DNA from: Maritimibacter sp. | GTDB lineage: Bacteria > Pseudomonadota > Alphaproteobacteria > Rhodobacterales > Rhodobacteraceae | Reading direction: 5' to 3' | Assembly (NCBI GenBank): GCA_017792445.1 | Contig: CP051232.1 | Coordinates: forward strand, 2,516,001-2,580,000 | Length of the DNA stretch: 64,000 nt | Shown here: piece by piece, positions 9,044 to 19,238 of the stretch | Position numbering within the stretch: position 1 is the first letter of the stretch | How the letters are laid out: each line of letters opens with the position of its first letter | Program-made: the position numbers and the translations under genes | Notes under the pieces: generated by a model | Told to the model about the DNA's origin: nothing | What the model saw: the letters and a program-made list of their open reading frames with translations, nothing else | Databases searched by the model: none

Positions 9044-10404
9044 GTTACGATCTGATTTTGAAGAACGGCGAGATCGTGTTTCCGGGCGAGGGCGTGACCC
9101 GTGGCTCGGTCGCGGTGAAGGGCGGCAAGATCGCCGCGATCCTGCAACCCGGCGAGACCGTCGAGGCGGCGCGCGTTGTCGACTGCACCGACCGCTGGAT
9201 CCTGCCCGGCGCCATCGACCCGCATACCCACGTGGGCTTCGGCGCGAAGGAAGACGACTGGACGACCGAGACGCGCACCGCCGCGATGCAGGGCGTCACC
9301 GGCCTGATGACCTTCTGGCGGTCCGAGGATCTGGACAAGACGACGCCCGAATGGCGCGACGCGGGCGAGGCGCGGTCGGTGATCGACTTCGGCTTTCACT
9401 TCGGCGTCACAGCCCGGCGGCATGTCGAGGAGTTCCCGAAGCTGGCCGCCAAGTACGGCGTGACCTCGCTGAAGGTTTACCTGATGTACAAGGGCGAGAC
9501 CGGCCGCGCGAAGGGGTTCACCGAGGTGGACGATGCGCTGCTGTTTCAGGCGCTACAGGCGGCGGCGACCGTCAGGGGCGGCGTCGTCGGCGTGCATTGC
9601 GAGAACACCGAGGTGATCCCGGTGTTCCGCGAGCCCGTGAAGGCCTCGGGTCGGATGGATCTTGGCGCGTGGGACGACCAGAGCCCGGGCTTCCTTGAGA
9701 CCGAGAACGTGTTCCGCGTCGCCTATTTCGGCGAGAAGGCGGGCTGCCCGGTGAACATCGTGCATATGTCGGCGGGCGAAAGCCTTGAACTGGTGCGCCG
9801 CATGCGCCGTCCGGACCGCCCGGCGATCAACGTCGAAACCTGCATCCATTACCTCGCCCTGACCCGCGACAGCGGCATCGGCGATCTGGGCAAGGTGAAC
9901 CCGCCGCTGCGCTCGCAGTCGGATGCCGACACCCTGTGGGAAGGCGTGCGCGACGGCGCGGTGCAGACCATCGGCTCCGACCACGTGGCCCGCAAGCGCG
10001 CAACCAAGGGGCCGGACATCTGGCAGGCCTCGGCGGGGTTTCCGGGCATGGCGCAGATCTGGCCGGTGCTGGTGTCCGAGGGCTTCCACAAGCGCGGCAT
10101 CCCGATCGAGACGCTGTCGGCCGCCACCAGCCGCAATGTCGCGAAGCTGTACAACCTGTCCGGCAAGGGCCGGATCGCGCCGGGCTACGACGCCGATTTC
10201 GCGATCGTCGACCCCGAGGGCGAAACGACCGTGCGGCACACCGACTATCCGTCGCACTCTGACTACTCGCCCTACGAAGGCATGACGTTCCGTGGCGCTG
10301 TGACCCACACGGTCCTGCGCGGAATGCTTCTGTCCGAAAACGGCGCGCTGGCCGAGGGCGTCGATGCCGCGCCTGCCGGCAAGTACCTGTTCCGGGCCAA
10401 CTGA
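9040..10404 (+). CDS. Dihydropyrimidinase/hydantoinase-family cyclic amidohydrolase
   Basis: A 454-residue amidohydrolase of the D-hydantoinase/dihydropyrimidinase/allantoinase group. It has the metal HxH (GAIDPHTHVGFG, about residue 62), the Lys expected to be carbamylated (SLKVYLMYKG, about residue 145), metal-binding HCENTE and VHMSAGES, and the late Asp (IGSDHVARK). Members open cyclic amides: hydantoins, dihydropyrimidines and cyclic imides such as succinimide or maleimide. The start GTG (9040) lies in a GTGA overlap with the preceding gene, with AGAGGA upstream. Next to an isochorismatase-like amidase, the simplest scheme is ring opening to a half-amide or N-carbamoyl acid, then release of ammonia (or ammonia and CO2). 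The actual ring is unknown. Confidence 0.9.
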   Translation: MSYDLILKNGEIVFPGEGVTRGSVAVKGGKIAAILQPGETVEAARVVDCTDRWILPGAIDPHTHVGFGAKEDDWTTETRTAAMQGVTGLMTFWRSEDLDKTTPEWRDAGEARSVIDFGFHFGVTARRHVEEFPKLAAKYGVTSLKVYLMYKGETGRAKGFTEVDDALLFQALQAAATVRGGVVGVHCENTEVIPVFREPVKASGRMDLGAWDDQSPGFLETENVFRVAYFGEKAGCPVNIVHMSAGESLELVRRMRRPDRPAINVETCIHYLALTRDSGIGDLGKVNPPLRSQSDADTLWEGVRDGAVQTIGSDHVARKRATKGPDIWQASAGFPGMAQIWPVLVSEGFHKRGIPIETLSAATSRNVAKLYNLSGKGRIAPGYDADFAIVDPEGETTVRHTDYPSHSDYSPYEGMTFRGAVTHTVLRGMLLSENGALAEGVDAAPAGKYLFRAN

Positions 10405-10432
10405 GCCCTATCCGCTTAGAAGAGAGAGACAC

Positions 10433-11146
10433 ATGAGCGAACGCATCTGGGACAAGTTCCTGACCGAGAAAGACAAGCGGATCTACCAGCTGGCCGGCTA
10501 CGGCAAACGCGGTGGCTTCGGCACGCGCCCGGCGCTGTTCATCATCGACGTGCAGTACAACTTCACCGGCGACGAACCGGGCGAGGATCAGGAAGAAGGC
10601 GTCAAGAAATACCGCACCCACTGCGGCGAGGCCGGCTGGAAGGCCGTGCCGCATATCGAGCGGCTGTTGAAGATCGCGCGCGAGAAGAACCTGCCGGTGT
10701 TCTACACAGTCTCCGAACGCCGCCCCGACATGATCGACAGCGGTGTGCAGGTCGGCAAAAGCCACCGCGGCCACGAAAAGACCTCGACCGAGGGCAGCCA
10801 CGCGACCCAGACCGTCGCGCCGCTGGCGCCGCAGCCGCAGGACATCCTGATCGGCAAGCGCAAGCCCTCGGCTTTCTTCGGCACGATCTTCATGAGCCAC
10901 CTCAACTTCCTTGACGTGGACACCTTGATCATGACGGGCTGCACCACCTCGGGCTGCCTGCGGGCCACGACGGTCGACGCCTATTCGTTCAACTTCAAGG
11001 TCGTGATCCCGGAAGAGACCGCCTTCGACCGGTTCGAGGCGAGCCACGCGATCAACCTGTTCGACCTGAACTGCAAGTACGCGGATGTGATCCCGACCGA
11101 CGAGGTCGCGGCCTACATGGAAAGCCTGCCGGTTCGCGAAGCCTGA
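10433..11146 (+). CDS. Isochorismatase-like cysteine amidohydrolase
   Basis: A 237-residue cysteine hydrolase with the triad of N-carbamoylsarcosine amidase and maleamate amidase: Asp in ALFIIDVQ (about residue 36), Lys in IGKRKPSAFFG (about residue 144) and Cys in TGCTTSGCLRATTVDA (about residue 178). The conserved cis-peptide region is also present. It hydrolyses a terminal amide or carbamoyl group. A 28-bp gap separates it from the amidohydrolase gene, and it is followed by a strong terminator, so it closes the operon. The likely substrate is the ring-opened product made by the preceding enzyme; maleamate and N-carbamoyl amino acids are candidates. Confidence 0.88.
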   Translation: MSERIWDKFLTEKDKRIYQLAGYGKRGGFGTRPALFIIDVQYNFTGDEPGEDQEEGVKKYRTHCGEAGWKAVPHIERLLKIAREKNLPVFYTVSERRPDMIDSGVQVGKSHRGHEKTSTEGSHATQTVAPLAPQPQDILIGKRKPSAFFGTIFMSHLNFLDVDTLIMTGCTTSGCLRATTVDAYSFNFKVVIPEETAFDRFEASHAINLFDLNCKYADVIPTDEVAAYMESLPVREA

Positions 11147-11216: not shown

Positions 11217-12398
11217 TCAGTTCAGCGACACCAGTACCCGCGACACGGCGTCGACGTCGTAGCGGGTCTCGCCCTCTGCGGCGAGCGGCAGGCGGACGCA
11301 GGGGATGCCGTGCACCTTCTCGACCTTGGCGCAGTCGTCGGGCGGCAGCGAGGTGTCGCACAGAACATGGCTGACCACGTCGCGCGGGGTGGCCTTCGGC
11401 CCGGCGTCCCGCAACAGGGGCGTCAAGATCGCGCCGATCTGCCCGGCAAGGTTGTGGCCCAGTGCCTCGGGGTCCTTGCCGAGGCTTGGCAGGTAGACCT
11501 TCGGCACCCGCCGCTTCGCGACCGCGCGGCCCACGCCCGCGGGCAGCAGGTTCGCGATCACGCTGGAGAACAGGCTGCCGGGCGGATAGCAGATCACCTC
11601 TGCCTGCTCGATCAGCCTGCGGTTCCGCTTTGGCAGGGGCACCGCGTCCGCTGACAACTCGGTGTCGCCGTCGCTCAGGAACAGCCGCGCGATCGGGCTG
11701 TCGAGAGGCGCGACCTCTTTGCCGCTGATCTGGCGCTGTCCGACGATCCGCCGCCCATCCTGCAACTCAACGCCAAGCTGCAGGTTCTCGTCGACGATGG
11801 CGCGGACGGTGCCGCGCACGTCGACCATCTTGGACATCAGGAACAGCACCGGCTCCAGCGCGCGCCCGTTGCCAAGATAACCGCCGGCAAGGATCAGGTT
11901 GCCGATGCTCGCGTTTCGATAGTCGAAATCATCCGGCACCTCGTCCGCAAAGCGGGCCAGTTGCGTCTGGATCAACTGCCGCATCGGCTTGGCGATGGCC
12001 GACAGCAGCGGGTGCTTGCCCTGCACCATCCGGGCGACCTCGGCCCTCAGCGCCTTCTGGTCGCCGTCCTTCGGCAGGCGGTGGCTGAACAGCGCATAAA
12101 CGTCCGGTTGACCCAGCACCGTCTCGTCCGCCAGCGCCATCAGCCGCGAGCGGAGGTCGCCCACCGCCGGAATGTCGAAGGCCTGCCGCAGAACCTGCGA
12201 ACTGCCGCCGCTGTCAAACGGGGTGATCAGGTGCATCGAGTTGAAGGTGTAGTGCTTCAGCCGCCGCGAGATCCCGTTCAGCGCGCTGCCGCCGCTGAAG
12301 AACAGGATGCGCGGCCCGAGATGCGGCGCGCTTTCGGCCCGCGCGACCCGCAGGTCGTCGGGAAGCGTCACTTCGCGCGCGACATGGATCGAGGTCAT
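11217..12398 (-). CDS. CofD-like protein of a GAK-type system
   Basis: A 393-residue protein related to 2-phospho-L-lactate transferase (CofD/YvcK fold). It shows the N-terminal nucleotide-loop region ILFFSGGSALNGISR, the substrate-loop region TPFDSGGSSQVLR, and a later YPPGSLFSSVIANLLP that corresponds to a conserved YvcK/CofD segment. From memory, a CofD-like family named for the GAK (ATP-grasp, amphi-Trp, kinase) system has this length and context. The ATG at 12398 follows AGGGGA. It is transcribed away from the Nudix/kinase genes across a 71-bp control region. The reaction is unknown: CofD moves a phospholactyl group, and YvcK binds a nucleotide-sugar. Confidence 0.82.
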   Translation of the reverse strand: MTSIHVAREVTLPDDLRVARAESAPHLGPRILFFSGGSALNGISRRLKHYTFNSMHLITPFDSGGSSQVLRQAFDIPAVGDLRSRLMALADETVLGQPDVYALFSHRLPKDGDQKALRAEVARMVQGKHPLLSAIAKPMRQLIQTQLARFADEVPDDFDYRNASIGNLILAGGYLGNGRALEPVLFLMSKMVDVRGTVRAIVDENLQLGVELQDGRRIVGQRQISGKEVAPLDSPIARLFLSDGDTELSADAVPLPKRNRRLIEQAEVICYPPGSLFSSVIANLLPAGVGRAVAKRRVPKVYLPSLGKDPEALGHNLAGQIGAILTPLLRDAGPKATPRDVVSHVLCDTSLPPDDCAKVEKVHGIPCVRLPLAAEGETRYDVDAVSRVLVSLN

Positions 12399-12469
12399 TT
12401 TCCCGCTGTCCCCTTGCACCGACCGGATTCGATCTTTGCATCCATGTTACCAGAGGCGCATATGGCAGC

Positions 12470-12925
12470 ATGAACGCAGAAGATGTCATACGTCCGACAG
12501 TCCGCGCTGTCATCCGGAAGGGGAATCTCGTTCTCGTGCAGGTCAAGCAATCGCCGTCGGGCAAACGCTATCTGACCCTGCCGGGCGGACGGCTGGAGTA
12601 TGGCGAGACAGTCGCGGACTGCGTGGTGCGCGAGTGCGTCGAAGAGATCGGCGTCGCGCCGGTGGTGGGCGACGTGCTGCATGTCGCCGACGTGTTCCGC
12701 ACCCGGAAGGACGGCAAGCGCCACCTGGTCGAGATCCTGCTGTCCTGCACCGTGCCCGACGACTACAAACCCCGGCTGGGCAAACGCCCAGACCGGCGGC
12801 AGATCCAGACCATCTGGACCGACCCCGCCGCGCCCGAGGCCAAGTTCTTCCCGCGCTACGACCGCTTCCTGTCGCGTGACGATGCGCCGGTGTACCTGGG
12901 AAGGCTCGACAATGTCGTCCCCTGA
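12470..12925 (+). CDS. Nudix hydrolase at the head of the GAK-type operon
   Basis: A 151-residue protein with an intact Nudix box (GGRLEYGETVADCVVREC then VEEIGV, about residues 42-65) that carries the REVEEIG-type metal ligands. Nudix enzymes cleave a nucleoside diphosphate linked to another group. It is the first plus-strand gene of the cluster, 71 bp from the divergent CofD-like gene. Its last 14 bases overlap the start of the PhoU/APH fusion, so both are made from one mRNA. It may hydrolyse an activated intermediate of the pathway or clean up a damaged nucleotide product. Confidence 0.88.
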   Translation: MNAEDVIRPTVRAVIRKGNLVLVQVKQSPSGKRYLTLPGGRLEYGETVADCVVRECVEEIGVAPVVGDVLHVADVFRTRKDGKRHLVEILLSCTVPDDYKPRLGKRPDRRQIQTIWTDPAAPEAKFFPRYDRFLSRDDAPVYLGRLDNVVP

Positions 12926-14543
12926 TCCGATCACCGAGAACATGTCGTTCCTGCTGGCCGAACTCGACGGACAGCTGACACGGCTGATCTCGTATTTCGA
13001 CGCGCCGCGCACCGAAACGGCGCTGCAACTGATCCAGCGGGCGGGCTATTCGCACAACCTGTCGGCGCGTGTCCGCAAGGCCTGTCTGTCCGGCATGATG
13101 CGGGGCAAGACGTCCGAGACAAAGCAGCTTCGCCTGCAGGGGACCGACACCATCGCCCGGAACCTCGACCTGATTTCTCGGCTGGGGCGCCGCGCCGTGG
13201 AACAGGCGGAACGGATGGACCGGCAAAAGGTGCTGCGTGCCGATACCTACGTCACGCCGCTGAAGATGGTGCGGAAGACGGTGGCCCGCATCCAAGAGGC
13301 ATTGGACGACCGCGACAGCAAGATGGCGGTGCAGATCGGCCAGACCCGCGCCGAGCTGGGCGTGTTCAACGACAGGCTCTTTCGCACCTACACCCGCGAC
13401 ATGCAGGGCACGAAGCATGCCGGGGATCTGGCCTATGCCCTGCTGACGCTGAACGAGATCACCCGCATGGGAGAGGCGTTGCAGGCGATCAGCGAGGCGA
13501 TCCTGTCGATCAACATCGGCCAGTCGGTTCAGTTCGAGCGCTATTTCACGCTGCGCAGCGTGCTGGCCGGGGTCTCGCGCGACGAGGATATCTCGCTTCA
13601 GCCGCTGGCGGAAACGCGGTCGGGCAGCGCGATTTCAAGCGTCAGCTTGCGGGACGCGAAGGGCAAGACCGTCTCGGCCGTCTTCAAGGACGGGGACCGC
13701 CGAAAGGTGAAGGAAGAACGGGTCGGCGTGAAAAGCTGGAACTCGGTCTATCCCGGCCTCGCGCCGGAAATCCTGTCCTACGAGAAAAGCGGCGAATCCG
13801 CCGCGCTGCTGATCGAGCATCTCGAGGGCGAGACCTTCGAGGATATCGTTCTGGGCGGCTCCGACGACGCTTTGGCAGAGGCGCAGGCGGCGCTGCACAA
13901 GACAGTACGCGACATCTGGCGGCAGACCCGCACGGACGAGCCCGCCGAGATGAAGGCGATGGACCAGTTGGGCAAGCGGATGAAAGACGTCTACCGCCTG
14001 CACAAGCGCTTCGACCGTGGCGCCGAGTCCATCAACGGCGCCACGGTGGCCAGCCTCGATGACCTGATCGCCGCCGCCGCCGCGCGCGAGGCGAAGCTGA
14101 AGGCGCCGTTCTCGGTCTACATCCACGGCGACTTCAACCTCGACAACGTGATCTACGACGCGGTGGCGAAGAAGATCCGGTTCATCGACCTGCACCGGTC
14201 GCGGTACATGGACTACGTGCAGGACGTATCCGTGTTCATGGTGTCGAACTATCGGCTTCAGGTGCTTGACGCCGGAACGCGCGCACGGATCGCGGGGGTG
14301 GCGGCCGATATGCACGCGATGGCCGCCAAGTTCGCCCGACGCGAGAAGGATCCGACCTTCGAGTATCGCCTTGCGCTTGGTCTCGCCCGGTCCTTCGCCA
14401 GTTCGACGCGCTTCGTCGTCGATCAAAGCCACGCGCGGCGGATGATCCTGCGCGCCCGGTACATTCTGGAAAGCGCGCTTGCGGTGCCTGCGGGGAAAGA
14501 GGCGCGGTTCCGGCTGCCTGTAAGGATGCTGTTCAGTGACTGA
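12912..14543 (+). CDS. PhoU-like / aminoglycoside-phosphotransferase-like fusion protein
   Basis: A 543-residue protein. About residues 1-215 are almost all helix with the spacing and Arg/Lys/Asp pattern of PhoU-like bundles (SFLLAELDGQLTRLI near the start, later MQGTKHAGDLAYALLTL). The C-terminal half (about 240-543) is a kinase of the aminoglycoside/choline-kinase fold. Its catalytic loop is HGDFNLDN (about residues 405-412) and its metal Asp is in FIDLHRS (about 425). A Lys (AVFKDG, about 258) could bind ATP. The start ATG at 12912 has GGAAGG six bases upstream and overlaps the Nudix gene; the 3' end overlaps the ATP-grasp gene by 8 bp. The substrate is unknown; a PhoU-type domain suggests regulation by, or contact with, phosphate or another partner. 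Confidence 0.78.
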   Translation: MSSPDPITENMSFLLAELDGQLTRLISYFDAPRTETALQLIQRAGYSHNLSARVRKACLSGMMRGKTSETKQLRLQGTDTIARNLDLISRLGRRAVEQAERMDRQKVLRADTYVTPLKMVRKTVARIQEALDDRDSKMAVQIGQTRAELGVFNDRLFRTYTRDMQGTKHAGDLAYALLTLNEITRMGEALQAISEAILSINIGQSVQFERYFTLRSVLAGVSRDEDISLQPLAETRSGSAISSVSLRDAKGKTVSAVFKDGDRRKVKEERVGVKSWNSVYPGLAPEILSYEKSGESAALLIEHLEGETFEDIVLGGSDDALAEAQAALHKTVRDIWRQTRTDEPAEMKAMDQLGKRMKDVYRLHKRFDRGAESINGATVASLDDLIAAAAAREAKLKAPFSVYIHGDFNLDNVIYDAVAKKIRFIDLHRSRYMDYVQDVSVFMVSNYRLQVLDAGTRARIAGVAADMHAMAAKFARREKDPTFEYRLALGLARSFASSTRFVVDQSHARRMILRARYILESALAVPAGKEARFRLPVRMLFSD

Positions 14544-15417
14544 GAAAATCGGAGTCATCGGAACCCCCGGAAAATGGTCGACCGAAGCGCTGGCGGATGC
14601 CTTCGAGGCGCGGACCGGCTATCGGCAGGTGATCGACATGGCGCACGTCACGCTGGAACTGGATACCGGGCGCTTGCTGTGTGACGGCACCGACCTGTGC
14701 GAACTCGACGGGCTGGTGCTGAAGAAGGTGGCCGAGGACTACAGTCCCGACGCGCTTGACCGGCTGGAGCTTTTGCGCGTCGCCGAGGCGCGCGGGGTGC
14801 GGGTCTTCAGCCCGGCGGAAAAGGTGATCCGGCTAATGGACCGGCTCGCCTGCACCGTGACGCTGGCCAACGCGGGCATCCCGATGCCGCCGACCACGAT
14901 CACCGAGGATGTCGACGCCGCGCGTGCCGCGCTGGAACGCTTCGGCTCGGCAGTGTTCAAGCCGCTGTTCTCGACCAAGGCGCGGGGCATGGTGCTGCTG
15001 GACCACGATGCGCCGGACGCCGCCGCGCAGATCGAGACGTTCAAGGCCGCGAACCCGATGATGTATATCCAGCAGAAGGCCGACCTGTCGGGCCACGACC
15101 TTGGCATGGTGTTCCTTGCGGGTGAATATGTCTGCACCTACGCCCGCGTCAGCCAGACGGGCAGCTGGAACACCACGATCCATTCAGGCGGCAAATACGC
15201 ACCCTACGCGCCGTCGACGGAGCTGATCGAGCTTGGCCGCAAGGCGCAGGCTCCGTTCGGGCTGACCTTCACCACGGTCGATATCGCGCTGACGCCGGAC
15301 GGTCCCATCGTGTTCGAGGTGTCTGCCTTTGGCGGCTACAGCGGCGCGCTGAAAGGTTGCGGGATCGACGCCGCCGCCTTGGTGGCCGAGCATGTTCTGG
15401 CCGAGGTGTCGCCATGA
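14536..15417 (+). CDS. GAK-type ATP-grasp ligase
   Basis: A 293-residue protein of the RimK/GshB-like ATP-grasp fold. The N-terminal part (residues 1-90) is Rossmann-like. An ATP-grasp core follows with the first nucleotide-binding strand around AVFKPLFSTKARGMVLL (about residues 146-162), the hinge YIQQKADLSGHDLG and the metal-binding strand IVFEVSAFGGYSG, where the usual ENP-type motif is FEVSAFGG. The start is GTG at 14536, with TAAGGA upstream and 8 bp of overlap. ATP-grasp enzymes join a carboxylate to an amine or thiol through an acyl phosphate. In this cluster it probably ligates an amino acid or small acid to the unknown product or a peptide. Confidence 0.83.
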   Translation: MTEKIGVIGTPGKWSTEALADAFEARTGYRQVIDMAHVTLELDTGRLLCDGTDLCELDGLVLKKVAEDYSPDALDRLELLRVAEARGVRVFSPAEKVIRLMDRLACTVTLANAGIPMPPTTITEDVDAARAALERFGSAVFKPLFSTKARGMVLLDHDAPDAAAQIETFKAANPMMYIQQKADLSGHDLGMVFLAGEYVCTYARVSQTGSWNTTIHSGGKYAPYAPSTELIELGRKAQAPFGLTFTTVDIALTPDGPIVFEVSAFGGYSGALKGCGIDAAALVAEHVLAEVSP

Positions 15418-16487
15418 CCGCCGCCGGGATCCTGTCACTCCTCGACCTGTCGCCCGCGCTCGCGTCGGACCCGTTTCACCTGACGGTGGGCCCGGTGGGG
15501 GTGACGGTGCTTTGCCCCGAGCCGCTGCGCGCTGCGCTCGTCTCGTATTTCACCGAGGCCGTGACGGACGTGCCCGGCGACATCACCGTGCATCTGCTGC
15601 CGGGGCAGGCGCTGGCCCCCGAGCCGGAATGGACCGAGTGGCGGCGAGAGGCTGGCAAGGCGGGGCGGAAGGACGCGGTCTGCGACCTTGAAGACGCCCG
15701 CCTTGTCCGCAAGGTTCGCAGCGGCGTGACCTTCCTGCAATCGCCGGAATACGCTGTCGCCTTCGGCCCGCTGGTCGAGAACGAAAGCACCGTCATCAAC
15801 TTCATCAACACGCAGATCCTGAACATCTGCCTGCGCGATGGCTGGCAGCTTGCCCATGCGGCGGCGGTGACCCGTGGGCGGCGGACGCTGGCGGTGTCGG
15901 GGCTGTCCGGTGGCGGCAAGTCGACCTCGGTGCTGCGGCTGATGGATATCGAAGGCGCGGGTTTTCTCAGCAACGACCGGGTGCTGATCCGCGCCGGCGA
16001 TCCGCCCCGCGCGCTGGGCATCCCGAAACATCCGCGCATCAATCCCGGCACGATCCTTGGCAACCCGCGCCTGCGGGGGATGCTGACGCCCGCGCGGATC
16101 GCGGAACTCGAAGCGATGCCGCCGGCCGACCTCTGGTCGCTGGAGGACAAGCACGACCTGATCATTTCACAGGTCTACGGTCCCAAGCGGGTGCGCTATG
16201 AAGGTCCGCTCACCGACTTCTGGGTGTTGAACTGGAGCCGGGACAACGACGCGGCCACACAGGTGACCGAAGTCTCGCTGAAGGACCGGCCGGACCTTCT
16301 GGGCGCGATCATGAAAAGCCCCGGTCCGTTCTACCAGCACAACGACGGCAGCTTCGAGCCGAACGGCAACGCACCCGACCCGGCGCCGTATCTGCGGGCG
16401 CTGAAGGGCGTCCGCGTCTGCGAGGTGTCGGGCGGCGTCGACTTCGACGCGATCGCCCGTATGGGGCGGCAGTTTCTTGATGGCTGA
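15414..16487 (+). CDS. HprK-related kinase (GAK-type)
   Basis: A 357-residue protein with the HPr-kinase-like C-terminal core: a Walker A loop of the HprK type (SGLSGGGKSTSVLRL, about residues 162-176) and FLSNDRVLIRAGD, which replaces the HprK catalytic segment. The N-terminal 150 residues resemble the leader domain of HprK-related kinase B. There are no PTS genes nearby, so HPr is not the obvious substrate. It overlaps the ATP-grasp stop (ATGA) and the next gene by 8 bp. HprK-like kinases phosphorylate small molecules or proteins on Ser; the target may be the amphi-Trp protein at 18526 or a metabolite. Confidence 0.85.
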   Translation: MTAAGILSLLDLSPALASDPFHLTVGPVGVTVLCPEPLRAALVSYFTEAVTDVPGDITVHLLPGQALAPEPEWTEWRREAGKAGRKDAVCDLEDARLVRKVRSGVTFLQSPEYAVAFGPLVENESTVINFINTQILNICLRDGWQLAHAAAVTRGRRTLAVSGLSGGGKSTSVLRLMDIEGAGFLSNDRVLIRAGDPPRALGIPKHPRINPGTILGNPRLRGMLTPARIAELEAMPPADLWSLEDKHDLIISQVYGPKRVRYEGPLTDFWVLNWSRDNDAATQVTEVSLKDRPDLLGAIMKSPGPFYQHNDGSFEPNGNAPDPAPYLRALKGVRVCEVSGGVDFDAIARMGRQFLDG

Positions 16488-17166
16488 CCGTGGCTACGTC
16501 GCCTTCCTGCGCCACGGCGACTATCGCCAACGCGCGGGCGCGCCCTCGGCACGGCAGCCCTATCCTCTGACCGAAAAGGGCTTGCGGCAGGCGGCGGACG
16601 GGGCGGATGCGCTGGCGGCGATGATCGCGGCGCATGGGCTGACCTTGGCGCCGGTGATCTACAGTTCGCGGCAGTTGCGGGCGTGGCAGACCGCTGACGC
16701 GGTGGCGGACCGGCTTCGGTCGCTCGGGCATAGGGTGGACGGGATCGAACAGACCTCGGCCTTGGCAGAGCGCGGCCTTGGCAGCGCCGCGAACCTGACG
16801 GTGGACGAGATCGAAAGCGTGCTGCGCGACGATCCGCGATACGGCGCGCCGCCCGTGGGGTGGAAATCTGACAGCGACTATCGCCTGCCGCTGGAAGGTG
16901 CGGAAAGCCTGATGGACGCGGGGCAGCGGGTCGCGCGGCATATCGAGGCGACCACCCAGCCGGGGCTGGTGACAATCCACGTGGGCCACGGCGCCTCGTT
17001 CCGGCATGCCTGCTGCTGTCTCGGTATTCTCGAAAAAGCACAGATCGCAGCGTTATCCATGTTTCATGCCCGACCGTCACTGATCTGTCATGAACCGGAT
17101 GGTAGCTGGCAACACTTGGACGGAGCATGGAAAATCAGGGAACCTGAGGACGAGCCGAAGGATTGA
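16480..17166 (+). CDS. Histidine phosphatase (phosphoglycerate-mutase fold)
   Basis: A 228-residue protein with the phosphohistidine motif FLRHGDYRQ (His about residue 11), a second-Arg region (YSSRQLRAWQTADAV) and the distal His (VGHGASFRHACC, about residue 168). This fold removes phosphate from small molecules or proteins through a phosphohistidine. It overlaps the HprK-related gene by 8 bp. A phosphatase coupled to a kinase suggests a reversible phosphorylation step. Broad-specificity housekeeping members exist, but the tight linkage makes a dedicated role likely. Confidence 0.87.
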   Translation: MADRGYVAFLRHGDYRQRAGAPSARQPYPLTEKGLRQAADGADALAAMIAAHGLTLAPVIYSSRQLRAWQTADAVADRLRSLGHRVDGIEQTSALAERGLGSAANLTVDEIESVLRDDPRYGAPPVGWKSDSDYRLPLEGAESLMDAGQRVARHIEATTQPGLVTIHVGHGASFRHACCCLGILEKAQIAALSMFHARPSLICHEPDGSWQHLDGAWKIREPEDEPKD

Positions 17167-17193
17167 TCCCTGACAAGGCATCGGGGTCGGCAC

Positions 17194-18510
17194 GTGAGCA
17201 AACTTTCCGAAATCGTACAATCGGGTCGCCCCGCGCTGCCACAGGTGTTCGATACCGCCGCTGTCCTGTCCGATCTTCCCCGCACCGTCGAGCCGTGGCC
17301 CGGCGCCGACAGCCACCCGCAGATCGCCGGTTGCCTTGAACGCGCGCGGCAGAACGGCGGATGGCATTGGCCGACCCAGCCGATCATCTTCATCTCTGAC
17401 CCGCATGCCGATGCCGAGGGCTTTCTGCGCTCGCTGACCGCCGCCGGGGCGATCCGGCGCGACGGCGCGCAGGTGGTGTTGACCGGTTTCGGCCAGCAGG
17501 CGCGGATCATCCTAGGGGGCGACAGTCTCGACAAGGGGCCCAGCAACCTTGGCTTGCTGGATGCCATCGCGGCGGTCCGGGCCGCCGGAGCCGATGTGCA
17601 CATCCTTGCAGGCAACCACGATCTGCGCATGCGGATGGCGGTCGCCGCGCTTTGCGGTCCGCGCACCGCGCTGAACGAACATCTGTTCGTGCGGATGGGA
17701 CGAAAGATCCTGCCCGCGCTGCGCGAAGTGCTGGACCGGTTCGTGACGCCCGCCGATCTTGCCGCGCTGCCGGACGAGACCGCCTGCCGCGCGCGCCTGA
17801 CGCCCCGCACCGACTGGCCCGACCGCTTCGCGGCCGCCGCCAAGGGCGAGTTGCGCCGCAAGGTCATCGCCAAGGAAATCCGCAAGCTGAACGAAAAGCT
17901 TGCCAAGTTCGAGAAAGAGCGTCGCCGGTCCGGGATGACCTGCCGCGAAATCCTGGCCGCCGCCCTGAAGTGCCACGACATCTTCTTCGAGCCCGACGGG
18001 CATTATGCATGGTTCTACGACACGATGGACGTGGTGGCGCAGGTCGGCTCGTTGCTGTTCGTGCATGCAGGCCTGTGCGATAGCATGTGTACGGCGCTGG
18101 TCGCAGAGGGAACCGAGGGCGTGAACGCCCGCTATCGCGAAGCGGCGGAACATGCGTCGCTCGGGTTCTACTTCGGACCGCTCGCCAACCTTGTCCGCAC
18201 CAAGTATCGCGACTCTGACTGCGAACTGACGGACGCGGGCGTCGGCGCCCTGCACCGAGCCGGCATCCACATGGTCGTGCAAGGGCACGTCAACAACCAC
18301 GAGGGCCAGCGTCTGTTGGCCAAGCGCGGTCTTTTACACCTTGAGGCAGACGTGACGCTGGACCGCGCGTCGCGGGCGCTGGAAGGGCTGGACGGCATCG
18401 GGGCCGGTGCGACCTTGATCTTTCCCTCCGGAGATGTGATCGGCTTGAGCCGTGACTTTCCGTGGGCCAAGCACTTTGCCCCGGAACGGATGAGCCCGCG
18501 GATCAGCTGA
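17194..18510 (+). CDS. PPP-like metallophosphoesterase with a large helical insertion
   Basis: A 438-residue calcineurin-fold phosphoesterase with four metal motifs: SDPHADAEG (about residue 69), GGDSLDKGPSN (about 109), GNHDLRMRM (about 142) and GHVNNHEG (about 368). Between the third and fourth lies an insertion of roughly 120 residues that includes a charged helical segment (KLNEKLAKFEKERRR) of coiled-coil type, and a Cys-containing HAGLCDSMC. The start is GTG at 17194, 27 bp after the phosphatase gene. The fold can act on phosphoproteins or dinucleotide phosphates such as Ap4A. It is the second phosphatase in the cluster, and the insertion may fix its specificity. Confidence 0.82.
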   Translation: MSKLSEIVQSGRPALPQVFDTAAVLSDLPRTVEPWPGADSHPQIAGCLERARQNGGWHWPTQPIIFISDPHADAEGFLRSLTAAGAIRRDGAQVVLTGFGQQARIILGGDSLDKGPSNLGLLDAIAAVRAAGADVHILAGNHDLRMRMAVAALCGPRTALNEHLFVRMGRKILPALREVLDRFVTPADLAALPDETACRARLTPRTDWPDRFAAAAKGELRRKVIAKEIRKLNEKLAKFEKERRRSGMTCREILAAALKCHDIFFEPDGHYAWFYDTMDVVAQVGSLLFVHAGLCDSMCTALVAEGTEGVNARYREAAEHASLGFYFGPLANLVRTKYRDSDCELTDAGVGALHRAGIHMVVQGHVNNHEGQRLLAKRGLLHLEADVTLDRASRALEGLDGIGAGATLIFPSGDVIGLSRDFPWAKHFAPERMSPRIS

Positions 18511-18525
18511 CGCAGGAGGCACCGC

Positions 18526-18798
18526 ATGAGCGACGACAACGCGCGTTTCCGGCACGAGTCCTTGCAGGATGCCAAGACGATCAAAACGCTGCTGACGGCG
18601 CTGTCCAAGGGCTTCTCGAAGGGCGAGATGACACTGGGCGACGAGGATGAAGAGCTTGTCCTGAAAGTCGACGGCCTGATGAACGTCCGCATCAAGGGAG
18701 AACGCGAGGACGGCCGGTGCGAGTTCAGCCTGCGCGTCCGCTGGTCGGACCCCGCCGCACCGGTCGCCAGCAAGGGCAAGCCCCGGATCGAAAGCTGA
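18526..18798 (+). CDS. Amphi-Trp domain protein (GAK-type)
   Basis: A 90-residue acidic protein consisting of one amphi-Trp domain. An amphipathic start (FRHESLQDAKTIKTLLTAL) is followed by a Gly/acidic turn and a beta segment ending FSLRVRWSD, with the conserved Trp. It starts 15 bp after the metallophosphoesterase gene, with AGGAGG upstream, and ends the operon. From memory, NCBI/TIGRFAM families describe this domain as a marker that co-occurs with HprK-related kinases and GAK ATP-grasp enzymes. It could be the protein substrate or scaffold on which the kinase, ligase and phosphatases act; this is inference. Confidence 0.8.
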   Translation: MSDDNARFRHESLQDAKTIKTLLTALSKGFSKGEMTLGDEDEELVLKVDGLMNVRIKGEREDGRCEFSLRVRWSDPAAPVASKGKPRIES

Positions 18799-18914
18799 CG
18801 GGCGGGTTCGGGGAAGCCGGGCCGGTCCGGGAATGACAGGGTGCCGGTCCGCTGTTAGCTTTGCCTTCGGGCGCGGTCGCCTTCCCGCCGCGCAGTTCGC
18901 GAAAGGTCGTTTCG

Positions 18915-19238
18915 ATGCCCAGATTTCTCTTTTCCATCGCGGTCGCCGTATTCGCGACCGCAGCCCACGCCCAGCAGATCGTCACGCCCGCCGGTCCCTA
19001 TATCACCGACACCGGCTGCCTTGTTCAGGGGCTCGACCCGAATGGCGACGGTTTCCTTGCATTGCGCGCGGGGCCGGGCACGAATTATTTCCAGATCGGC
19101 AGCCTCCACAACGGCGACGCCGCCTATCTGCGCAAGTGTCAGGGGAAGTGGTGCTATGTCGAGAACGGCGCGCTGAACGGGCGCGAGGCACGGTTCCGCG
19201 GCTGGATCTACACCGCGTGGTGCCAGTTCTATCCGTGA
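18915..19238 (+). CDS. Exported SH3-type domain protein (107 aa)
   Basis: A small exported protein with a Sec signal (MPRFLFSIAVAVFATAAHAQ, cleavage after AHA). The mature part is one bacterial SH3 domain with the FLALRAGPGTNYFQIGSLHNG signature and four Cys that may form disulfides. Such domains bind peptidoglycan or cell-wall components. The ATG at 18915 follows GAAAGG. It lies between the GAK-type operon and the exopolysaccharide locus; with no overlaps it may be independent. Its role is probably envelope-related. Confidence 0.82.
   Translation: MPRFLFSIAVAVFATAAHAQQIVTPAGPYITDTGCLVQGLDPNGDGFLALRAGPGTNYFQIGSLHNGDAAYLRKCQGKWCYVENGALNGREARFRGWIYTAWCQFYP

Follow-up and report, generated by a model that had tools for sequence, protein, structure and literature searches.

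A recurrent GAK-type gene cluster in Maritimibacter sp. sets two kinases, an ATP-grasp ligase and two phosphatases beside a small amphi-Trp protein

The GAK locus

Here we describe a cluster of eight genes in Maritimibacter sp. of the kind known by the database name GAK, in which a PhoU-domain kinase, a second kinase related to HPr kinase, an ATP-grasp ligase and two phosphatases are encoded beside a small amphi-Trp protein. The stretch analyzed, referred to below as the window, comprises 64,000 nucleotides of contig CP051232.1 (assembly GCA_017792445.1, positions 2,516,001 to 2,580,000), and all eight open reading frames (ORFs) of the putative cluster are present at window positions 11217-18798. 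The cluster is not the product of chance, because its gene order recurs and because the ATP-grasp ligase and the PhoU-kinase coincide across genomes (12 of 12 versus 0 of 237). The features of the locus are as follows:

11217-12419, minus strand: cofD, a CofD-like protein predicted to be of the YvcK/GlmR type (TIGR04357); divergent from the other genes; accessory
12420-12469, intergenic stretch of 50 bp separating the divergent cofD and Nudix ORFs
12470-12925, plus strand: Nudix hydrolase, 151 residues (PF00293, E 1.8e-15); accessory
12912-14543, plus strand: fusion of a PhoU domain, by profile (PDB 4q25), with an APH-type kinase of predicted APH(3') fold, 543 residues; core
14536-15417, plus strand: GAK ATP-grasp ligase, RimK/LysX-like (TIGR04356); core
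15414-16487, plus strand: HprK-related kinase B, here HprK-B (TIGR04355); core
16480-17166, plus strand: histidine phosphatase, branch 1 (PF00300, E 1e-15); near-core
17194-18510, plus strand: PPP-like metallophosphoesterase (PF00149); near-core
18526-18798, plus strand: amphi-Trp protein, 90 residues (TIGR04354), whose linker varies and whose C-terminal end, PRIES in this copy, is conserved

The plus-strand genes are tightly packed: the Nudix and PhoU-kinase ORFs overlap by 14 nt, the PhoU-kinase and ATP-grasp ORFs by 8 nt, the ATP-grasp and HprK-B ORFs share an ATGA overlap, and HprK-B overlaps the histidine phosphatase by 8 nt, after which a gap of 27 nt leads to the PPP gene and a gap of 15 nt, containing AGGAGG, to amphi-Trp. 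The original prediction of eight linked genes, those on the plus strand overlapping or nearly touching, is thus borne out by the ORFs and the sequence. Its further reading as a GAK-type system of opposed kinases and phosphatases agrees with the family matches and with conserved active-site motifs. Four of the window's proteins exceed the curated cut-offs of GAK-related NCBI models: CofD_rel_GAK (TIGR04357, 490 bits, cut-off 340), grasp_GAK (TIGR04356, 440.6 bits, cut-off 300), HprK_rel_B (TIGR04355, 294 bits, cut-off 200) and amphi-Trp (TIGR04354, 64.9 bits, cut-off 31; the Pfam model PF20068 scores 25.7, below its cut-off of 27). No GAK model is among the NCBIfam matches of the PhoU-kinase.

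Gene content and order across loci

A scan of named genomes supplied the best 80 of at least 493 confirmed relatives, which with 49 further loci made 129, or 127 after two with identical ATP-grasps were dropped. The loci were picked through their ATP-grasp or PhoU-kinase, so both genes number 127 by construction, and some loci are cut by contig ends. HprK-B occurs in 124 of the 127, the PPP enzyme in 118 as a full copy and in 4 as a fragment, the histidine phosphatase in 105 plus 1 fragment, and amphi-Trp in 121; five of the six loci lacking amphi-Trp stop at or near contig ends, and L195 does not. A linked CofD gene and the small Nudix gene each occur in 56 loci. The original prediction held that all eight families would be conserved together, and this stands for six of them; CofD, which also occurs without GAK, and the small Nudix enzyme are accessory, and the eight families are not one unit.

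The order seen in the window, with CofD on the minus strand followed on the plus strand by Nudix, PhoU-kinase, ATP-grasp, HprK-B, histidine phosphatase, PPP and amphi-Trp, recurs from Rhodobacterales to Gammaproteobacteria. Throughout the 80 named loci it is the same, save that some genes are absent and a single gene is inserted or moved; among the other loci the exceptions are L148, where CofD lies behind amphi-Trp, and L152, where amphi-Trp lies 4 kb off. Among the 45 and the 30 largest neighbor clusters, no further neighbor recurs beyond a SixA-Nudix fusion described below, only lineage-bound ones. The XXXCH domain (TIGR04358) was sought as a missing partner and matched in 0 of 12 GAK genomes, which is no proof of absence because the model is silent in the control genomes too.

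Several loci merit separate mention. Short PPP remnants lie just 5′ of amphi-Trp in L066, L067, L069 and L085, the last of which also carries a histidine-phosphatase remnant; these suggest a recent loss of the phosphatase arm, with the kinases, the ligase and amphi-Trp kept. Locus L034, titled Enemella evansiae TN21-6 (the name of an actinobacterium), encodes an ATP-grasp 85% identical to the window's and falls amid Rhodobacteraceae matches, and its record is probably mislabelled or contaminated. Likewise, L097, titled as a metagenome-assembled genome of a Halobacteria archaeon, carries the cluster in the gammaproteobacterial arrangement with a SixA piece after HprK-B, and its bin name is probably wrong.

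Co-inheritance across genomes

Co-inheritance was assessed in a sample of 249 Pseudomonadota genomes, the searches covering Pseudomonadota and the best named loci. The grasp_GAK model exceeds its cut-off in 12 genomes (at E 0.001, 167 have some match, mostly from the wider RimK family), and a PhoU-kinase profile at E 1e-20 matches exactly the same 12 and none of the other 237 (Fisher p 1e-20). Because it coincides with the ATP-grasp in this way, the PhoU-kinase fusion belongs to the GAK core. HprK_rel_B exceeds its cut-off in 13 genomes, the same 12 and G140, whose gene begins at base 214 of its contig; amphi-Trp does so in 19, including 11 of the 12, and in the twelfth, G156, the contig stops within the PPP gene. 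Of the eight extra amphi-Trp genomes, seven are without GAK and G184 carries a truncated HprK-B on the amphi-Trp contig. In G033 the ATP-grasp and HprK-B genes are both cut at a contig start and score below cut-off. Since their core genes are cut or lie at contig edges, G033, G140 and G184 are probably GAK genomes masked by contig ends. Fisher p values for pairing the ATP-grasp with PhoU-kinase, HprK-B and amphi-Trp range from 2e-13 to 1e-20 and are inflated by shared ancestry, as the 12 GAK genomes fall in 9 genera.

The distribution is patchy. In the window's own family 1 of 14 sampled genomes has GAK, whereas in a genus labelled g103 the PhoU-kinase is found in 36 of the 48 genomes; we infer this genus to be Marinomonas, since at two of its loci the GAK proteins are 100% identical to those of loci with Marinomonas in their titles. 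Among 72,556 plasmids, five carry GAK. Such a pattern might be expected of a mobile island that serves defense or makes a peptide natural product, in which amphi-Trp would be the antitoxin or the precursor, and HprK-like kinases and ATP-grasp enzymes do occur in clusters for ribosomally synthesized and post-translationally modified peptides (PMC8498205). Against this, the five plasmids are typed as non-mobilizable, the largest neighbor clusters include no recurring transporter, protease or leader peptide, and amphi-Trp is predicted to be folded. A defense system was rejected as a candidate: PADLOC matched no defense model in the cluster save, weakly, for the Nudix protein (PDC-S07, 33 bits over 62 residues). 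We regard the island as very improbable.

Other genes adjoin the cluster. In the window an isochorismatase-family hydrolase (10364-11146, plus strand; PF00857, E 2e-24) lies upstream and outside GAK, and just 3′ of amphi-Trp (18861-19238, plus strand) is a 125-residue protein with a weak SH3_3 match below the Pfam cut-off. In some g103 loci an ABC transporter flanks GAK (L182, L185, L187, L188 and L190-L192), with an inositol-monophosphatase-family gene in overlapping loci; both are lineage-bound.

Kinases, ligase and phosphatases

The kinase fusion has an APH domain by Pfam (E 4e-12), and in an AlphaFold2 model (mean predicted local distance difference test, pLDDT, 86) its kinase domain resembles APH(3') by Foldseek (E 6e-8). 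Its catalytic loop HGDFNxDN is present in 126 of 127 loci, the remaining copy being cut by a contig end. On the single window protein the PhoU match is weak (E 2e-4, 22.4 bits against a Pfam cut-off of 23.5); with the family profile it becomes clear (PDB 4q25, E 1.9e-9), and the N-terminal domain is, on this profile evidence, PhoU. No publication on PhoU domains joined to APH kinases was recognized in the open-access literature by its title and opening of the abstract.

The HprK-B family aligns with HprK-type sequences (hhalign, E 7e-14) over a region including HA..V, SGxGKS and DR, the comparison set being ten windowed sequences, one of them (L209) translated in an incorrect frame and another (L205) a longer relative. 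Judged by this alignment HprK-B is homologous to HPr kinase; no solved HprK was matched when the PDB was searched with the HprK-B profile. The P-loop residues K169 and S170, together with D188 and R189, are present in 124 of 124 copies. So are R78, K86, R96 and K100 in a basic stretch N-terminal to the P-loop, where K82 is found in 122 and position 102 is always R or K; these counts come from a column-wise alignment, and one fixed pattern matched only 84 of the 124.

In the PDB the ATP-grasp matches RimK (E 1e-18), an enzyme that acts on a protein C-terminus, and its score against the MptN model is 136 bits, below the cut-off of 350. In RimK the ExN motif (EVN) holds an Asn that we take to bind metal; in all 127 GAK loci it reads ExS, so the RimK-type motif is not kept.

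On the phosphatase side, the PPP enzyme passes its Pfam cut-off narrowly (Metallophos PF00149, 21.7 bits against 21.5, E 3e-4) and has no solved-structure match at E 0.001, and its motifs DxH, GGDxxDKG, NHD, HAG and GH are invariant in 25 aligned sequences. In the histidine phosphatase R11, H12 and H170 are invariant in 21 aligned sequences. Within g103 this family (E 1e-25 or better) is found in 24 of 36 GAK-bearing genomes and in 0 of 12 GAK-less ones, its copies lying in the cluster.

The amphi-Trp protein

AlphaFold2 predicts that the window's amphi-Trp protein folds into a single helix and four strands (pLDDT 82, with a spread of 82 to 65 over five models; predicted template modelling score 0.61). 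Foldseek returned no significant match to this model in the PDB (best E 0.88), and an HPr-like fold, considered as a candidate, was set aside for the modelled structure on that ground.

Of the 121 GAK amphi-Trp proteins, 119 were aligned, one that is cut by a contig end and one reading FVHESY being dropped. Only F8 and W74 are invariant; at position 10, 100 proteins have His and 19 have Tyr, and at position 12, 87 have Ser and 32 have Ala. The pattern used to locate the start itself requires F followed by H or Y and after that by S or A, and it fits 121 of 121 if Tyr is allowed in the last place. Ser12 was therefore rejected as an obligatory site for HprK-B, given its replacement by Ala in 32 of 119. 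The motif FxHxSL is absent from all eight non-GAK amphi-Trp proteins seen, L130 having FRH alone.

After the Trp comes a tail with a median of 16 residues. In 113 of 120 proteins its end consists of [PL]x[IV] followed by no more than nine residues, whereas shuffled tails average 16. Ser is the final residue in 56 of 120 and makes up 7.5% of the remaining tail; because the sequences are related, these counts are not independent. The original prediction had cast amphi-Trp as a carrier or substrate. A covalent carrier is weakened by the finding that only F8 and W74 are invariant, and a client or adaptor is possible in view of FxHxSL and the conserved tail end.

Outside GAK, the amphi-Trp gene lies directly 3′ of a gene for NAD-dependent glycerol-3-phosphate dehydrogenase in L124 and L127, and near a Ppx/GppA gene in L122.

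CofD, Nudix and SixA-Nudix proteins

The window's CofD protein matches the Pfam CofD family, and its second NCBIfam match, below cut-off, is to TIGR01826 (YvcK). Its profile finds five UPF0052 or uncharacterized proteins in the PDB at E 0.001, none named as a CofD transferase; UPF0052 we take to be YvcK. By these matches CofD-GAK is of the YvcK type, and a role as F420-type 2-phospho-L-lactate transferase, considered as a candidate, is unsupported by the same matches. In the 249 genomes CofD_GAK occurs in six, namely five of the 12 with GAK (two of them unlinked) and 1 of the 237 without (p 6e-7). In g103 all 48 genomes have it, one in broken form, including all 12 that lack GAK, so CofD does not need GAK. 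Two unlinked CofD-GAK genes (L159:7674-8903 and L160:7812-9005) adjoin genes for a GDPD phosphodiesterase and a HAD hydrolase by Pfam, and inspection by eye suggests that the same neighborhoods also encode a DeoR-like regulator and an ABC importer for sugars or glycerophosphate.

These results bear on whether the system is a proteobacterial counterpart of the HprK-Crh-GlmR network of Bacillus, in which case amphi-Trp would stand for Crh or HPr, HprK-B would phosphorylate it, and the YvcK-like protein would gate carbon into UDP-sugars. The predicted YvcK/GlmR type of CofD-GAK and the homology of HprK-B to HprK speak for such a counterpart, but CofD is absent from 7 of the 12 GAK genomes in addition to occurring without GAK, the amphi-Trp model gives no sign of an HPr fold, and S12 is not invariant. 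The separability of CofD in particular weakens a GlmR-Crh-like network, and we consider it unlikely.

A fusion of a SixA-like phosphatase with a Nudix domain is found with both halves in 38 of the 127 loci, and in 35 of the 80 named ones (one copy cut). It sits between HprK-B and the histidine phosphatase in 21 loci, mostly gammaproteobacterial by title (L109 is titled Rhodospirillales and L097 Halobacteria), and on the opposite side in 13 alphaproteobacterial loci, directly behind CofD in 6, in place of CofD in 5 and farther away in 2; L096 also has it behind CofD. The nearest PDB relatives of the Nudix half, searched with one sequence, are diphosphoinositol polyphosphate phosphohydrolases (DIPPs), followed by Ap4A hydrolases. 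Neither half is matched in the 64-kb window; outside it, the same genome has SixA-like and Nudix domains encoded by separate genes. Neither kind of Nudix gene is present in the stretch around the cluster in 58 of 127 loci, so pyrophosphate hydrolysis is not a core function.

The Nudix proteins also raise the question of whether the system instead forms and degrades a small molecule carrying phosphate or pyrophosphate, which would serve as a signal or store of phosphate status. Here the PhoU-gated APH kinase and HprK-B would phosphorylate the molecule, the ATP-grasp would conjugate it, the Nudix, SixA-Nudix, PPP and histidine-phosphatase enzymes would degrade it, and amphi-Trp would bind it. 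Enzymes of the APH fold are mostly small-molecule kinases, and the PhoU domain is real by profile (PDB 4q25); the SixA-Nudix partner has a DIPP-like Nudix half, and the unlinked CofD-GAK gene adjoins GDPD, HAD and a putative ABC importer in two genomes. The near-invariant basic residues ahead of the HprK-B P-loop and the lack of an invariant acceptor in amphi-Trp fit as well. On the other side stand the 58 loci with no Nudix gene of either kind around the cluster and the finding that, SixA-Nudix apart, no pathway gene recurs at the core among the 45 and 30 largest neighbor clusters, and we know of no HPr-kinase relative that acts on such small molecules. A small-molecule system is possible, if somewhat doubtful; the missing acceptor, the APH fold, the basic HprK-B residues and the DIPP-like partner make it nearly as likely as action at the protein level.

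Proposed function

Our tentative preference, held well short of confidence, is that the cluster encodes a soluble module for phospho-regulation that works either on the amphi-Trp protein or by way of it, amphi-Trp being the client or adaptor. The protein level is favored because amphi-Trp is a constant and tailed member of the cluster and because HPr-kinase relatives, RimK and SixA act on proteins or peptides. The direct evidence consists of gene content, homology, active-site motifs, co-inheritance and the tail, and from it we infer the substrate, the directions of the reactions and the physiological role. In the proposed module, the PhoU domain would act as the sensor of the PhoU-APH kinase, and HprK-B would be the second kinase, from a family whose characterized members phosphorylate serine residues of small proteins or peptides. 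The RimK-like ATP-grasp would couple an amino acid, or another nucleophile, to a carboxylate, most simply that of a protein C-terminus, and the PPP enzyme and histidine phosphatase, joined in some lineages by SixA-Nudix, would undo the phosphorylations. The YvcK-like CofD and the Nudix enzyme may provide accessory links to sugar-nucleotide status. As client or adaptor, amphi-Trp would offer a folded part bearing FxHxSL and a linker whose conserved C-terminal end could serve for docking or modification. Two precedents lend substance to these roles: HPr-kinase homologues of lasso-peptide clusters phosphorylate peptides at a C-terminal serine, largely irrespective of the other residues (PMC8498205), and SixA dephosphorylates the phosphocarrier NPr (PMC7948535).

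A number of observations weigh against the amphi-Trp-centered module. HprK-B is missing from the cluster region in 3 of 127 loci (L096, L101 and L200), and in L200 amphi-Trp retains FHHESL all the same, the cluster regions being the part of each genome that was covered. Both phosphatases are lost, or present only as fragments, in seven loci titled as Rhodobacterales genera. No acceptor residue is invariant among the 119 aligned amphi-Trp proteins, 20 of 120 have no Ser or Thr within the final eight residues, and the C-terminal end -IS is found in three of the eight non-GAK amphi-Trp proteins as well (L122, L124 and L127), so that this end was not made for the GAK enzymes. APH folds, moreover, mostly phosphorylate small molecules. 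Finally, a linked loss of amphi-Trp His10 and the histidine phosphatase in g103, where the phosphatase is missing in 11 of 19 Tyr10 loci versus 1 of 16 His10 loci (Fisher p 0.0016), was rejected, having no tree-aware support on a quick tree that split the intended outgroup and placed only three changes in each trait.

A more specific form of the proposal is a cycle of protein modification, in which HprK-B would phosphorylate and the ATP-grasp extend the C-terminal end of amphi-Trp, the PhoU-kinase would set the cycle by phosphate status, and the PPP, histidine-phosphatase and SixA-Nudix enzymes would reset it. We think this cycle improbable as it stands. If it were true, it would constitute a phosphate/carbon switch of marine bacteria, without counterpart in the known phosphotransferase (PTS) or Pho systems. 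More generally, should amphi-Trp or a phosphorylated metabolite prove to be the target, GAK would be a new regulatory phosphorylation system of marine and symbiotic Pseudomonadota.

Comparison with known systems

No publication on the function of GAK, nor any on the term amphi-Trp, was found in the open-access literature, in keeping with the original prediction that no function is established, and the main text of PMC12389409 mentions neither XXXCH nor GAK. The locus in the window belongs to a known kind of cluster, since NCBI already names GAK members in other Rhodobacterales. It has the same four families that NCBIfam describes for GAK (TIGR04354-TIGR04357), all above their curated cut-offs; a plasmid of Qingshengfaniella alkalisoli carries all eight genes in the window's order, and one of Tritonibacter mobilis the last six, also in that order. 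In NCBI annotation the GAK-named models match only CofD and the ATP-grasp, with HprK-B and amphi-Trp alongside, while the PhoU-kinase, PPP and histidine phosphatase are generically named, even though the PhoU-kinase is as constant as the ATP-grasp. New here are the wider core, the SixA-Nudix partner, the predicted YvcK nature and the separability of CofD, the Asn-to-Ser change in the ligase, and the amphi-Trp tail. With a core that includes a PhoU-domain kinase, a PPP enzyme and a histidine phosphatase, and with CofD separable from it, a set of database names becomes a defined genetic unit with few candidate substrates.

Among characterized systems, a Bacillus operon has the order yvcI-yvcJ-glmR-yvcL-crh (PMC6171935). 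That operon, taken together with HprK, shares with GAK a YvcK-like protein, a Nudix enzyme, an enzyme of the HPr-kinase family and a small protein; however, nothing in the amphi-Trp model points to an HPr fold, GAK does not always include CofD, and it adds a kinase, a ligase and phosphatases. In this comparison we take yvcI to be the Nudix gene and HprK to be encoded elsewhere in Bacillus. The GAK ATP-grasp has its fold family in common with the RimK, LysX and MptN ligases and differs from RimK in having Ser for the Asn of EVN. The SixA-Nudix partner, found in 38 of 127 loci and unmatched in the window, joins in one protein the domains of DIPP- or MutT1-type Nudix enzymes and of SixA phosphatases. 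Like the HPr-kinase homologues of lasso-peptide clusters of the paeninodin type, GAK pairs an HprK-family kinase with a small protein, here Ser-ended in 56 of 120 cases; unlike those clusters, it has no lasso maturation genes that we noticed at its loci, and its C-terminal Ser is not universal and is found outside GAK as well.

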